NCBI RefSeq assembly: GCF_000147715.2
Contig: NC_017934.1
Location: forward strand, 434,001 to 498,000
Reading direction: 5' to 3'
Source of the DNA: Mesotoga prima MesG1.Ag.4.2
GTDB lineage: Bacteria > Thermotogota > Thermotogae > Petrotogales > Kosmotogaceae
Length of the DNA: 64,000 nt
Below the pieces are notes generated by a model. It made no database searches and had not been told where the DNA came from. It saw only the letters and a list, made by a program, of their open reading frames with translations. Positions within the stretch are counted from its first letter, which is position 1, and each line of letters starts with the position of its first letter. Of the stretch, positions 44,514-49,768 are shown piece after piece. The translations under genes and the position numbers were made by a program.

Positions 44514-45737
44514 CTATAAGAGTTTTCTAGCTCTTATTTTCTGGAGGTTTTCATACATTGGAAGACCGTTCAGGTAGAGATTAGGTGCCTCACCCTGTAT
44601 CAGTGGAAGTGCATAAGACCTGAACTCGTCAGTAACATAAAATCCGTCTTCGGAGATGAATTCGACCGGGAGATCTTTTGTACCATTTGCAATGAGCTCA
44701 AGAGCGACCGTAGTGTATTCTTTAAGATAGGGTTTGCTTCTCAATCTATTTATGGAAATCATGACCTCGCTTTCCCCTCTTATGGCCTCTCTAACGGCAA
44801 GTGCTCCTACTTCAACTGCTTCTTGCCAATCGATCAAGCTTGCAACGTGCCTCGATGATCTCTGAAGGTAATCAGGTAAAGCCACGTGAACTTTGCACTT
44901 CAAAGCGTCTCTAATTATCTTCTCAAGGTACTGACCTATCTTTCCTAACTGGACATTTCCAAATGAATCGTAGTAGCCAGCAGTTGATATGAATGAACCA
45001 TCAGGCCTTTTGAGAGCCTCTGAGGCAACTATTGAGCAGTATCCTTCCTTCTTCACAACTTCTTCGACTTTTGCGATAAAAGAGTCCTCCATAAAGGGAA
45101 CCTCAGGAAGGAGGATGATTTGAGGACCGTGAAACCTGTCTGTGCTTGCAAGTGAACCAGATGCGGCAAGCCATCCCGAATTACGTCCCATGGATTCCAT
45201 AATAAAGACCTTTGTTGAATCACTGTACATTGATTTCAGGTCTCTGGTCGCCTCCATTATCGATATTGCGGTGAATCTTGCGGCCGATCCATAACCGGGG
45301 CAGTGGTCAGTTTCAAGAAGATCGTTGTCCACTGTTTTTGGAATTCCAACGACTTGCAGTTCATAACCGATCTCTTTAGCCTTTTTGCTTATTTTGTGAG
45401 CAGTATCCATTGAGTCATTGCCACCGTTATAGAAGAAGTATCGGATCGAGTGCGCATCGAAGACTTTAAATAGCTTCTCGAAATCTTCATCACTGTCAAT
45501 CTTCGTTCTACAAGAACCGAAGACTGCACCTGGAGTGTAAGGAATTCTGTCTATCTCACTTCTTGCTTCTTCAGTTAAGTCGTAAAGATCCTCATTTAGA
45601 ATCCCCTTTACTCCATTTATTCCGGCGAAGACTCTATCGATTTCTTTGCTTTCAAGAGCCGCAACCAGTGTTCCATAAGCAGATGCGTTGATTACAGATG
45701 TAACGCCCCCGGATTGAGCGTAAACAGCATTCTTCAT
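44514..45737 (-). CDS. pfp: 6-phosphofructokinase, probably PPi-dependent
   Basis: 407 residues. The substrate loop is FFYNGGNDSMDTA: the GGD-G/D-S loop of the family reads GGND, with Asp at the position that is Gly in ATP enzymes. PKTVDNDL supplies the Lys typical of PPi use in place of Gly (GTIDND). PPi-dependent PFK is usual in Thermotogota. MESMGRNSGWLAA is the substrate-binding block. SD GGGAGGTG. Co-substrate assignment is inference from motifs. Confidence 0.85.
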   Translation of the reverse strand: MKNAVYAQSGGVTSVINASAYGTLVAALESKEIDRVFAGINGVKGILNEDLYDLTEEARSEIDRIPYTPGAVFGSCRTKIDSDEDFEKLFKVFDAHSIRYFFYNGGNDSMDTAHKISKKAKEIGYELQVVGIPKTVDNDLLETDHCPGYGSAARFTAISIMEATRDLKSMYSDSTKVFIMESMGRNSGWLAASGSLASTDRFHGPQIILLPEVPFMEDSFIAKVEEVVKKEGYCSIVASEALKRPDGSFISTAGYYDSFGNVQLGKIGQYLEKIIRDALKCKVHVALPDYLQRSSRHVASLIDWQEAVEVGALAVREAIRGESEVMISINRLRSKPYLKEYTTVALELIANGTKDLPVEFISEDGFYVTDEFRSYALPLIQGEAPNLYLNGLPMYENLQKIRARKLL

Positions 45738-46043
45738 TATAGTGGTTCACCTCCCTCACTTACATAAATGATATCAGACAGTGAAATCTGAGTGAAGGAA
45801 CTGACTCTCTAGCAGCAATCTCAGCTTGAAGGTTCCGATAGAAGAGACCGTGCCGAGTTCTTGTATCAGATGTTTAGAACGGGAAACTTCACTTCCGATG
45901 TCTACCTCAATGATGATTTTCGCAATCAGCAATGAACAATTGTCTTGGGTCAGTAATAAACCTCAAGGAGAAGCGTTCCACAACTCACCCTGCCTCTTTG
46001 TATCTTCGGAAGAGACCATTAAATTTGGATTTGAGGTGTTCTA
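45738..46043. other. 306-base intergenic region upstream of pfp
   Basis: It holds the pfp promoter (45768-45796). Two short open frames on opposite strands (for example a 40-codon plus frame, QQSQLEGSDRRDRAEFL and so on, at 45813-45932) look protein-like but have no SD; they may be remnants or chance. Confidence 0.45.
45768..45796 (-). promoter_or_regulatory. promoter of pfp
   Basis: TTCACT (45791-45796), a 17-base spacer and TATCAT (45768-45773) lie on the minus strand, about 30 bases upstream of the pfp start at 45737. Confidence 0.55.
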
Positions 46044-47243
46044 TTAGACTGTGGCAAATGAGCGGTTAAATTCCTTGAGACCAAGAGCCAGTACTTCAAT
46101 AGCAATCTTCATCTTTTCTGAAGAAAGAACATAGGCGATTCGAACTTCCTTCCTACCTACACCTTCACTTGAGTAAAATCCCTCTAGTGGAGCAACCATT
46201 ACTGTGCTCCCATCGTAGGAAAAGTCTGTAAGCATCCATGTTACGAATTCTTCGGCGTTTTCAACGGGAAGCTTAACCGAGATATAGAAAGCACCGGAGG
46301 GTTTCTGCATTTCTATTCCATCGATTTTGCTAAGCTCTTCAAAGACTACATCTCTTCTGAGCTCATACTCCCTTCTCACTGAATCTGTGTATTCCTTGCC
46401 CAATGTAAGGAGACCAATGGTTCCGAGCTGAGCAATAGTCGGAGGAGATAGCCTCGCCTGGGCAAATTTCATCATCGTTCTGTAAACCTCGTTGTTCTTT
46501 GTTGCCACACACCCAATTCTTGCGCCACAGCTACTGAATCTCTTTGAAATGCTGTCAACGATAATTATGTCTTGTCCTGAATCTATCGTCATGATTGAGG
46601 AAGGTTTTATGCCGTCAAAAACCATTTCTCGATACACTTCATCACAGATAACGTATAGATCATTTCTTCTTGCGAACTCTATGAGTCTCCGTAACTCGTC
46701 CTCTGTGTAAACTACTCCTGTGGGATTAGAAGGATTTGAAAAGAGAATTGCTTTAGTTCTTGCGGTCAAAGCTTTGGATAATTCTTCGTCATCGGGTAAT
46801 CTATAACCGTTTGATATTCTCGAGGTAGCGGCCCTAACTTTGAGTCCCAGCATGTTGGCGAAGCCTATGTAATTGGCGTAGAAAGGTTCGATCAACATAA
46901 TCTCATCGCCAGGATCAGCTACAGCCGCTAGAGCGAAGAGAATTGCCTCGCTGCCGCCCGAAGTTACAAGAAGCTCATCCGCGGAAACATCGATTTCCCA
47001 AGATCTAAAATACTTTGAAAAAGCCTCCTTAAGCTCTTTTATTCCATCTGATGGCGAGTAAGAGACCACGGAATCGGAAAGCTTGTTTACATAATCAAAG
47101 AATACTTTTGGAGTTTGAATATCAGGCTGTCCAATATTGAGATGATATACCTTCACACCTCTATCCTTAGCCTTCTGTGCAAAAGGCACTAATTTCCGTA
47201 TTGGAGAAGATGGCATAAAAATCCCGCGTTGCGATATTTTCAT
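46044..47243 (-). CDS. class I/II PLP-dependent aminotransferase
   Basis: 399 residues. The PLP site is DSISKRFSSCGARIGC (S-x-SK-x5-G-x-R-x-G); SNPSNPTGVVY, CDEVYREMVFDG and LNIGQPDIQTP are family blocks of the aspartate/aromatic aminotransferase class. Substrate specificity is not determined. SD AGGAGGT seven bases before the ATG. A palindrome overlaps its promoter. Confidence 0.92.
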   Translation of the reverse strand: MKISQRGIFMPSSPIRKLVPFAQKAKDRGVKVYHLNIGQPDIQTPKVFFDYVNKLSDSVVSYSPSDGIKELKEAFSKYFRSWEIDVSADELLVTSGGSEAILFALAAVADPGDEIMLIEPFYANYIGFANMLGLKVRAATSRISNGYRLPDDEELSKALTARTKAILFSNPSNPTGVVYTEDELRRLIEFARRNDLYVICDEVYREMVFDGIKPSSIMTIDSGQDIIIVDSISKRFSSCGARIGCVATKNNEVYRTMMKFAQARLSPPTIAQLGTIGLLTLGKEYTDSVRREYELRRDVVFEELSKIDGIEMQKPSGAFYISVKLPVENAEEFVTWMLTDFSYDGSTVMVAPLEGFYSSEGVGRKEVRIAYVLSSEKMKIAIEVLALGLKEFNRSFATV

Positions 47244-47274: not shown

Positions 47275-47306
47275 GTTATTATACAATAACTATTTGTTGG
47301 TATGAA
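47275..47306 (-). promoter_or_regulatory. aminotransferase promoter with overlapping palindrome
   Basis: On the minus strand TTCATA (47301-47306), a 17-base spacer and TATAAT (47278-47283). GTTATT-GTAT-AATAAC (47275-47290) is a perfect palindrome covering the -10 box, a good operator position. Confidence 0.65.
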
Positions 47307-47361: not shown

Positions 47362-47388
47362 ACAAAAAAAGGCTGCGTGCGCAGCCTT
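47362..47388 (-). terminator. intrinsic terminator of the 37-codon gene
   Basis: On the minus strand AAGGCTGC-GCAC-GCAGCCTT is followed by seven T. This is a textbook terminator 46 bases after the small gene stop. Confidence 0.88.
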
Positions 47389-47434
47389 CACGATAGTAGT
47401 AAAGAAGCTTACTTCCAGGGAAATAGCACGTGAC

Positions 47435-47548
47435 TCAATTTCCTCTGTCCTCGAAAGTCACCTCAAGCAGATTAAGGGTTCTATCTGTCTCAAGTTCAAG
47501 CACATTCTGCTTGTCTGATTCGACTTTCTTGAGTTCTTTCTCAATCAT
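47435..47548 (-). CDS. 37-residue small acidic protein, unknown
   Basis: Start ATG at 47548 with AGGAGGT six bases upstream (an in-frame ATG at 47554 abuts the SD). The peptide MIEKELKKVESDKQNVLEL continues to ...FEDRGN and ends in TGA at 47435. It is rich in Glu, Lys, Leu and Asp with heptad-like spacing, so an amphipathic helix is likely; no signal peptide or known domain is seen. A promoter at 47602-47631 and a terminator at 47362 frame it as a single-gene transcript of about 230 bases. A non-coding role for the same RNA cannot be excluded. Confidence 0.7.
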   Translation of the reverse strand: MIEKELKKVESDKQNVLELETDRTLNLLEVTFEDRGN

Positions 47549-47601
47549 ATCCATACCTCCTGTATTCATTTTCTTCTTCTTCCCCCGCTGTTTGTACTTA
47601 G

Positions 47602-47631
47602 ATTATAGCATAGTAGTTCAGCCCTAAACAA
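47602..47631 (-). promoter_or_regulatory. promoter of the 37-codon gene
   Basis: TTGTTT (47626-47631), an 18-base spacer, and TATAAT (47602-47607) preceded by TGC, an extended -10. Confidence 0.75.
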
Positions 47632-47737: not shown

Positions 47738-49768
47738 TCATCTCACAGTGATCGTAAAAGTAGTCGATGCCTCCCCGCCTTTTAGATCATTAGCGGTTAG
47801 CATAACTGTGTTCGATCCCAGCTCTTCTGGAATGAAGGAGTAAATGCTTCCCGTAAGAACTCCAGGTCCATAGACCAGCTCATACCTTAGATAGTCTCCG
47901 TCTGGGTCGATGCTAAACTGTCTGAGGTCAAGCCGCAAGGTTCTAGTCGCAATGGTTGTTTGATCAGGCACATTAAACTCGGGTGGGCGATTGGTGTCGG
48001 TAATCAGCAGATCGAAGGTGGCACTGGTCTGGCCTCCCCTTCCATCAGAAGCGCTTACTACAATTGTATAAAAACCGTAATCTTCGAAACCTGGTTCAAT
48101 TATCAGCCTGCTTCCTTCGATCGTTCCCATTCCCTGAACGATCTCAAATGATAGATTGTCATTGTTTGGATCAGATGAGTATTCACTGAGATCAACAACA
48201 AGTCTGGAACCTTCTGCTATTGTAAATCCAGGTATATTTAATTCTGGTGGCCTGTTGCTCTCCCTAACATCAATTCTGAGAGTCGCCCTTGCAGACCCGC
48301 CTTTTCCATCTCCTACAGAGACAATTGCTTCATAAGTTCCTGCGGTGCCATAGTCTGCGTCGAAGGTGTAGGTTTCTCCCTGGATAGTTCCAGGGCCGGA
48401 GACCAGTGAGAAGCTGAGTAAATCGTTATCAGGATCTGAAGCGTATTCTGAAAGGTCAATCGTTAGTACATCACCCTCCGCGATTCTTCTAGGTAGAATT
48501 GAAATTGTCGGCGGATTGTTCGTCCGAACTACAGTGAGATTCGCCGTTCTTTCAATGAATTCTCCCTTTCCATCGGAAGCTCGAATAGTTGCCGAGTATC
48601 TTCCTGGTTCGTCCGATTGGAATATGTACGTCGACCCTTCGATTCTTCCCGGGCCACTGAGAAGTTGGAATGAAAGCGAATCCCCGTCAGGATCAGTAAA
48701 ATAATTCTCGAGGTTCAATCTGTATTGTTCACTCTGAAAAACGACGCCTTCCGGAATACTTGAAGCTACCGGAGCTTTGTTCGCGGACTCAATGTTTATC
48801 TGAAAGCTTTCTTCGACGACGTTCTTTCCATCCGATATTTCCAAGACTACTGTCTTGGAACCGGCATCCCCGGGAGGGCTCACATAGGAGTAAAGAGTTC
48901 TTTGAACCTCACCCGGTCCCGATTTTAAGTTAATTGAAAGTGGTTCATCCTCTGGATCGTTCACAAAACCTCTCAGGTCCAGAACCAAAGTGTTTCCTTG
49001 CTCGAGTGCCTGATCCGGGACATCAGCAGTAGGTGGGAGATTCTGTGCATCGGCCACTTCTGTTTCCGAAGATGTGACTGGACTGTCTAGACTCGTAGCG
49101 GCAGTTTCCGATGGCACAGAAGATGTGGAGTCTGCGGTCAGCTCTGTTGAGGATGTAGCAAAGGCTTTATTAGATATCATGAACGTTGAAGCTGCCTTCT
49201 CTCCTCTTCCATCTGAAACGGAAATAGTCACCCTCTCATAATTTGCACTTGTGAAATCAGGTTCATAAGTATAGTTGCTTCCAATTATTTGCCCATTGCC
49301 CTCGGTTAATGAATAATTCAAGGCGTCAAGGTCAGGATCATTTGCATACTCGTCAAGGTTTATTGAAATCGTCTCCCCTTCGGCAACCACCTGGTCTGGG
49401 ATAGAAAGCTCGGGTGGACGGTTGACCTCTCTCACAGCGATTTCGAATGAAGACTCCGCCATTTGTTCCTTCGAATCTACTACTGAAATTGTTACAGAGT
49501 GACTTCCCGACTGTTGGAAACTCGGTGAAAAAATGTAGAAGTTCTCTTTGACCTCTCCGGGACCCGAAATTTTCGTGTAACTCAGAGATGTCATCTTCTC
49601 ATCGCTTGAATAGTCGTGAAGATCTATCGAAAGCGTACTGCCCTCATCGATAATCATATCGGGGATGCTTATTATTGGGGGTTTGTTAAGCATGTCAGGC
49701 AGGAGTCGTATTGCAAAAACAACAACCACAACGACCATCAACAAAGCCCAGAAGAACCATTTTCTCAT
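47738..49768 (-). CDS. membrane-anchored protein with seven cadherin-like modules
   Basis: 676 residues. A single N-terminal membrane segment (about 5-24) is followed by seven modules of about 86 residues, each starting N-R/K-P-P and containing ...DPDxDxLSFxLxSGPGxIxG..., with starts near 28, 116, 243, 330, 417, 504 and 591. A Ser/Thr-rich linker (about 200-242) separates modules two and three. The Asp-rich DPD motifs suggest calcium binding as in cadherin-like and PKD-like surface modules. It is likely anchored in the inner membrane and extends into the periplasm, possibly towards the toga. No catalytic domain is seen. Confidence 0.85.
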   Translation of the reverse strand: MRKWFFWALLMVVVVVVFAIRLLPDMLNKPPIISIPDMIIDEGSTLSIDLHDYSSDEKMTSLSYTKISGPGEVKENFYIFSPSFQQSGSHSVTISVVDSKEQMAESSFEIAVREVNRPPELSIPDQVVAEGETISINLDEYANDPDLDALNYSLTEGNGQIIGSNYTYEPDFTSANYERVTISVSDGRGEKAASTFMISNKAFATSSTELTADSTSSVPSETAATSLDSPVTSSETEVADAQNLPPTADVPDQALEQGNTLVLDLRGFVNDPEDEPLSINLKSGPGEVQRTLYSYVSPPGDAGSKTVVLEISDGKNVVEESFQINIESANKAPVASSIPEGVVFQSEQYRLNLENYFTDPDGDSLSFQLLSGPGRIEGSTYIFQSDEPGRYSATIRASDGKGEFIERTANLTVVRTNNPPTISILPRRIAEGDVLTIDLSEYASDPDNDLLSFSLVSGPGTIQGETYTFDADYGTAGTYEAIVSVGDGKGGSARATLRIDVRESNRPPELNIPGFTIAEGSRLVVDLSEYSSDPNNDNLSFEIVQGMGTIEGSRLIIEPGFEDYGFYTIVVSASDGRGGQTSATFDLLITDTNRPPEFNVPDQTTIATRTLRLDLRQFSIDPDGDYLRYELVYGPGVLTGSIYSFIPEELGSNTVMLTANDLKGGEASTTFTITVR

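Follow-up and report, generated by a model that had tools for sequence, protein, structure and literature searches.

The intergenic region that separates the gene for an Ig/cadherin-domain protein (47738-49768) from that for a class I/II aminotransferase (46044-47243) in Mesotoga prima contains a 37-codon reading frame, which raises the question of whether so short a frame is a genuine gene and, if so, what its product may do. The region lies in a window of 64,000 nucleotides (C1:434001-498000), the whole stretch of DNA that was analysed, on a chromosome of 2,974,229 bp (2,975,953 bp in total with the second contig); M. prima MesG1.Ag.4.2 also carries a plasmid (PMC4603820).

A complete predicted transcription unit on the minus strand

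A reading made from the sequence alone (hereafter the sequence-only reading) had proposed a complete single-gene unit of ~230 nt, and its promoter, Shine-Dalgarno (SD) sequence, frame and terminator were all located, giving a predicted transcript of ~234 nt. All elements of the unit lie on the minus strand, which that reading had left unstated. The features are as follows (window coordinates).

47602..47612, minus strand: extended -10 promoter element TATGCTATAAT, assigned from sequence, with a predicted transcript start at ~47595
47555..47563, minus strand: Shine-Dalgarno ACAGGAGGT (AGGAGG core), invariant in the five Mesotoga copies
47435..47548, minus strand: ORF of 37 codons MIEKELKKVESDKQNVLELETDRTLNLLEVTFEDRGN followed by TGA, under purifying selection and with 11 of 17 Kosmotogaceae genomes carrying a homologue
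47444..47488, minus strand: conserved core motif T-D-x-x-L-N-L-[LIV]-E-V-[TS]-F-x-D-R (residues 21-35), with six residues invariant in 11 proteins
47368..47389, minus strand: hairpin of an intrinsic terminator with a T run after it, the stem being kept in all five Mesotoga copies
47278..47306, minus strand: sigma-70-type promoter belonging to the aminotransferase gene that comes next, outside the unit and a sign of its independence, with the same TTCATA...TATAAT arrangement in genome G014

The ATG at 47548 lies 7 nt after GGAGG, in line with the spacing that had been claimed, and is the third of three in-frame ATGs. The two upstream ATGs, which would yield products of 44 or 39 aa, were rejected as starts, relatives not having them; since one homologue (G010) also has a TAA directly 5' of the third ATG, this is taken as the start, as in the sequence-only reading. 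A 65-codon ORF on the opposite strand (47430-47627, plus) was likewise rejected: it is interrupted by a stop in G011, the promoter, SD and terminator point the other way, and it shows fewer synonymous changes than the real frame (76/209 versus 96/213, summed across pairs). That it is open in most copies is explained by its wobble positions facing those of the real frame.

The pattern TRTGCTATAAT occurs just seven times in the 2.98 Mb genome (none for the reversed-pattern control), and several of the other copies precede ORFs resembling ordinary genes. Extended -10 elements are the dominant promoter form in Thermotoga maritima (PMC3636130), which makes the promoter of the small gene a strong, housekeeping-type one.

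Elsewhere, at locus L108 (G000:C1, ~2178053, minus strand), a TATGCTATAAT promoter, an SD, a 35-codon ORF (MTMRAYVPATVSLNRVSGDAVLCHAFFRRVRYKIV) and a terminator-like hairpin were found. An ABC-type ATPase ORF follows ~600 bases further on, and this unit is possibly a leader-peptide attenuator.

A single-copy family confined to the Kosmotogaceae

The search for homologues in Thermotogota that the sequence-only reading had proposed was fruitful. A single-sequence search of 17 Kosmotogaceae genomes retrieved ten true homologues (query included), and profiles run against 103 Thermotogota genomes brought this to 11 of the 17 (E values 4e-11 to 1e-19), in all five Kosmotogaceae genera searched. Among the same 103 genomes no credible homologue was found outside this family. 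Each positive genome holds one copy, which stands alone, spans 30 to 43 codons and has its own SD, and which is preceded in 10 of 11 cases by the same or nearly the same extended -10. The homologue of K. olearia (43 codons, plus strand, ~1,747,542-1,747,673, near groEL), encodes MREERKTIFRTKDDLRIKTDEELNLLEVTFKDRKNLPLSKLQG with a predicted tryptic peptide TDEELNLLEVTFK; public RNA-seq (SRP075860; PMC5674127) and proteomics (PXD001860; PMC4540001) datasets exist for this organism. A scan of genome contigs, a method limited by so short a query, confirmed just one copy, with 95% identity, from a MAG of the Kosmotogaceae. Three Mesotoga genomes (G006, G009 and G012) lack the gene, which shows that not every member needs it.

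A 60-aa ORF from another family of the same order (G037; E 0.03-0.12) was excluded from the count as a different small protein. This ORF (L056, 1400-1600; MATSSFYKDFRIKTERELNSLEKAFENP...) is weakly similar to the motif and overlaps or abuts a downstream ORF, and it looks like part of a two-gene, possibly toxin-antitoxin-type unit. The remaining Thermotogota matches, above E 0.02, were fragments or lay inside long ORFs and were discarded.

Selection acts on the protein rather than on the RNA

The check for synonymous-site bias gave a clear answer: in the closest Mesotoga pair seven of nine codon changes are synonymous (dN/dS 0.06), and the other Mesotoga pairs with a finite estimate gave dN/dS values of 0.10-0.35. 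Substitutions among the five Mesotoga copies are concentrated at third positions, more residues are identical than when the same substitutions are placed at random (P ~0.01 or less in 9 of 10 pairs), and the 6-base insertion in G007, a multiple of three, preserves the frame. By these comparisons the small ORF is under purifying selection within Mesotoga.

Mean nucleotide identity reaches 72% across the ORF, against 47% over the 5'UTR and 42% over the 3' spacer; apart from the ORF, conservation is limited to the -10 element, SD sequence and terminator stem. The outcome that had been named as speaking against a protein, an RNA structure kept while the frame is lost, is thus the reverse of what was seen. 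A dual-function RNA had been among the suggestions, and such an RNA, or a mainly regulatory one with the ORF secondary, could draw on the whole transcript folding better than shuffled sequences (z -2.4) and on a G-rich stretch 5' of the SD in the Mesotoga copies. Outside the terminator, however, no conserved RNA was found, the covariation term of the consensus fold is slightly unfavourable (+0.76, hence no net covariation support), and the resemblance to the other genera lies in the protein motif without extending to the RNA. We consider such an RNA improbable.

ORFs of this length are common, and dinucleotide shuffling of the intergenic region produced an SD, an ATG and an ORF of >=30 codons in 37 cases out of 2000, although none of the 2000 placed TGnTATAAT upstream of an SD-led ORF. 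A chance ORF within an sRNA or intergenic region is nevertheless refuted by the comparative data, i.e. the protein-level selection and the cross-genus homologues, and its probability is negligible. The 37-codon unit is, on this comparative sequence evidence, almost certainly a genuine single-copy, lineage-restricted protein gene, one long retained in the Kosmotogaceae, and the sequence-only reading was right in taking the product for a real protein.

Neighbouring genes change between genera

In five Mesotoga genomes the small gene has the Ig-domain gene on one side and the aminotransferase gene on the other, and shares the strand of the latter. Outside Mesotoga, where neighbours were named by eye from their translations, it follows the groEL region in K. 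olearia, is accompanied by opine-dehydrogenase-like and metallo-beta-lactamase-fold genes in the genus of G003-G005, stands beside feoA/feoB-like genes in G015, and is flanked by spermidine-synthase-like and pyruvate-ferredoxin-oxidoreductase-like genes in G001. Promoter, SD and, mostly, a downstream hairpin accompany the ORF across genera while the neighbours change.

These arrangements bear on whether the small frame is a leader peptide or attenuator that governs the aminotransferase gene following it. Such a role would fit the adjacency of the two genes on one strand in the five positive Mesotoga genomes, the terminator between them, and their joint absence where the block is absent. The enzyme, however, has its own promoter, and outside Mesotoga the two genes are far apart (1.747 Mb versus 1.592 Mb in K. 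olearia). Together, the changing neighbours and the separate promoter argue against both a leader peptide and a fixed operon partner. The frame also has no regulatory codon run, its conserved part being a C-terminal amino-acid motif with free choice of codons, and we regard this explanation as highly improbable.

Both the small gene and its aminotransferase neighbour are absent from G006, G009 and G012, which have NAD(P)-transhydrogenase-like genes instead. Since G012 groups with positive genomes in a tree built from the Ig protein, there has been more than one loss or exchange of the block. Over all genomes, the aminotransferase is present in each of the 11 that carry the small gene, and the small gene in none of the five lacking a close copy of the enzyme, which makes the enzyme a candidate partner. 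The small protein might therefore be a regulatory subunit or inhibitor acting in trans on this AspC-like aminotransferase specifically. The linkage in Mesotoga explains the pattern equally well, however, the correlation deriving from one linked block lost or exchanged perhaps twice, and G016 has the enzyme without the small gene (possibly owing to a contig gap). We judge this specific pairing unlikely.

The Mesotoga stretch beside the Ig-domain protein is polymorphic (window 44514-47243; L128, L129, L130). The Ig protein itself (47738-49768, minus strand) has 676 residues, with a membrane segment at the N-terminus and roughly seven Ig/cadherin-like repeats, and is kept in eight Mesotoga genomes.

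A toxin-antitoxin or mobile-element component would fit the small size of this gene, its stand-alone state and its change of address from genus to genus. The gene is, on the other hand, single-copy in every genome and has no constant partner gene, and the small protein found no match among phages, plasmids and viral contigs; this origin is very improbable indeed. The absence of a hydrophobic stretch, the single copy and the lack of a partner gene also count against the toxin-like or membrane-stress peptide that had been suggested from the sequence. With no transmembrane stretch and with neighbours that vary by genus, the gene resembles neither a type I system (hydrophobic toxin plus antisense RNA) nor a type II system with its adjacent partner gene.

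A conserved C-terminal motif on a variable chain

Conservation of the protein is centred on residues 21-35, in which T21, D22, L25, L27, E29 and F32 are invariant in all 11 proteins and position 33 is [KE] (T-D-x-x-L-N-L-[LIV]-E-V-[TS]-F-[KE]-D-R); the motif residues are encoded by many varied synonymous codons. The N-terminal half varies freely across genera in sequence, length and charge. The acidic character ascribed to the protein holds in Mesotoga and G015 and fails for the family as a whole, in which net charge ranges from -6 to +4. No transmembrane or hydrophobic stretch was found in the sequence of the small protein.

The product had also been described as helical, and AlphaFold2 run on the single sequence did return one long helix with high confidence. 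Single-sequence AlphaFold2 often draws a confident helix for short charged peptides. With the 11 homologues supplied, the model became an irregular chain with no helix, of moderate confidence (mean pLDDT 68), which is highest in the C-terminal half (blocks averaging 82 and 80). The hydrophobic moment of the core, taken at 165 degrees for a strand and at 100 degrees for a helix, is larger for the strand in all 11 proteins, by a tiny margin in several. The helix claim is therefore unsupported, and a chain that folds upon a partner is the more plausible picture.

Analogues among known small proteins and a proposed role

Searches of Pfam, NCBIfam and PHROGs gave no profile match above cut-off for the small protein, and Rfam covariance models gave none within the window at the gathering score. 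A profile search of solved PDB chains found no relative, its one match (DEPDC5) being spurious, and no paper describing this microprotein was found in the literature.

The closest analogues in function are three proteins of Bacillus of similar size, Sda (46 aa), MciZ (40 aa) and SR1P (39 aa), which each bind one target (PMC7430163). Sda, which inhibits the histidine kinase KinA in B. subtilis, is likewise tiny, has its own gene and acts through few hydrophobic residues (PMC7430163); unlike the Mesotoga protein it is a defined helical hairpin. In the FtsZ inhibitor MciZ a disordered region becomes folded at its target (PMC7430163), but this protein is under sporulation control, in contrast to the housekeeping-type promoter seen here. 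Neither gave a sequence match in the search of solved chains, and by this search the small protein is outside the Sda and MciZ families. SR1P, which binds GapA and is encoded by the dual-function sRNA SR1, is a lineage-conserved peptide (PMC7430163); the likeness noted is one of size and of conservation over a lineage, and SR1 has an RNA role whereas the Mesotoga unit has no conserved RNA part. Closer in phylogeny, T. maritima has small ORFs (<40 aa) inside putative ncRNAs, in the same phylum and with the same promoter type (PMC3636130). Those ORFs are without peptide evidence (PMC3636130), and the present family showed no homologue outside the Kosmotogaceae among the 103 Thermotogota genomes.

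The explanation we propose, to which we give about an even chance, is that of a constitutively transcribed Kosmotogaceae microprotein that would dock its C-terminal motif on one partner protein, a function inferred from size, motif shape and analogy. The protein would be soluble and constitutively made, its variable N-terminal half may serve as a tether, and the 15-residue motif (TDxxLNLxEVTFxDR) would dock, probably as an induced strand or helix, on a single conserved partner protein and modulate it, as Sda, MciZ and SR1P do in Bacillus. The short conserved motif, the variable tiny chain and the lack of a transmembrane stretch were counted in favour of this docking. The small protein is possibly a regulator. 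A more tentative suggestion, which we hold to be rather doubtful, is that this is an undescribed Kosmotogaceae-wide family whose C-terminal motif regulates a core machine by strand or helix addition, a lineage-specific control device found nowhere else.

A microprotein is an ordinary kind of thing, here newly defined. The comparative evidence shows that a frame of 37 codons (30 in one relative), shorter than gene callers usually accept, is a real protein gene, and the motif offers a means of annotating this family in Kosmotogaceae genomes. If its partner were found, it would be among the few microproteins of the deep-branching Thermotogota with an assigned function.
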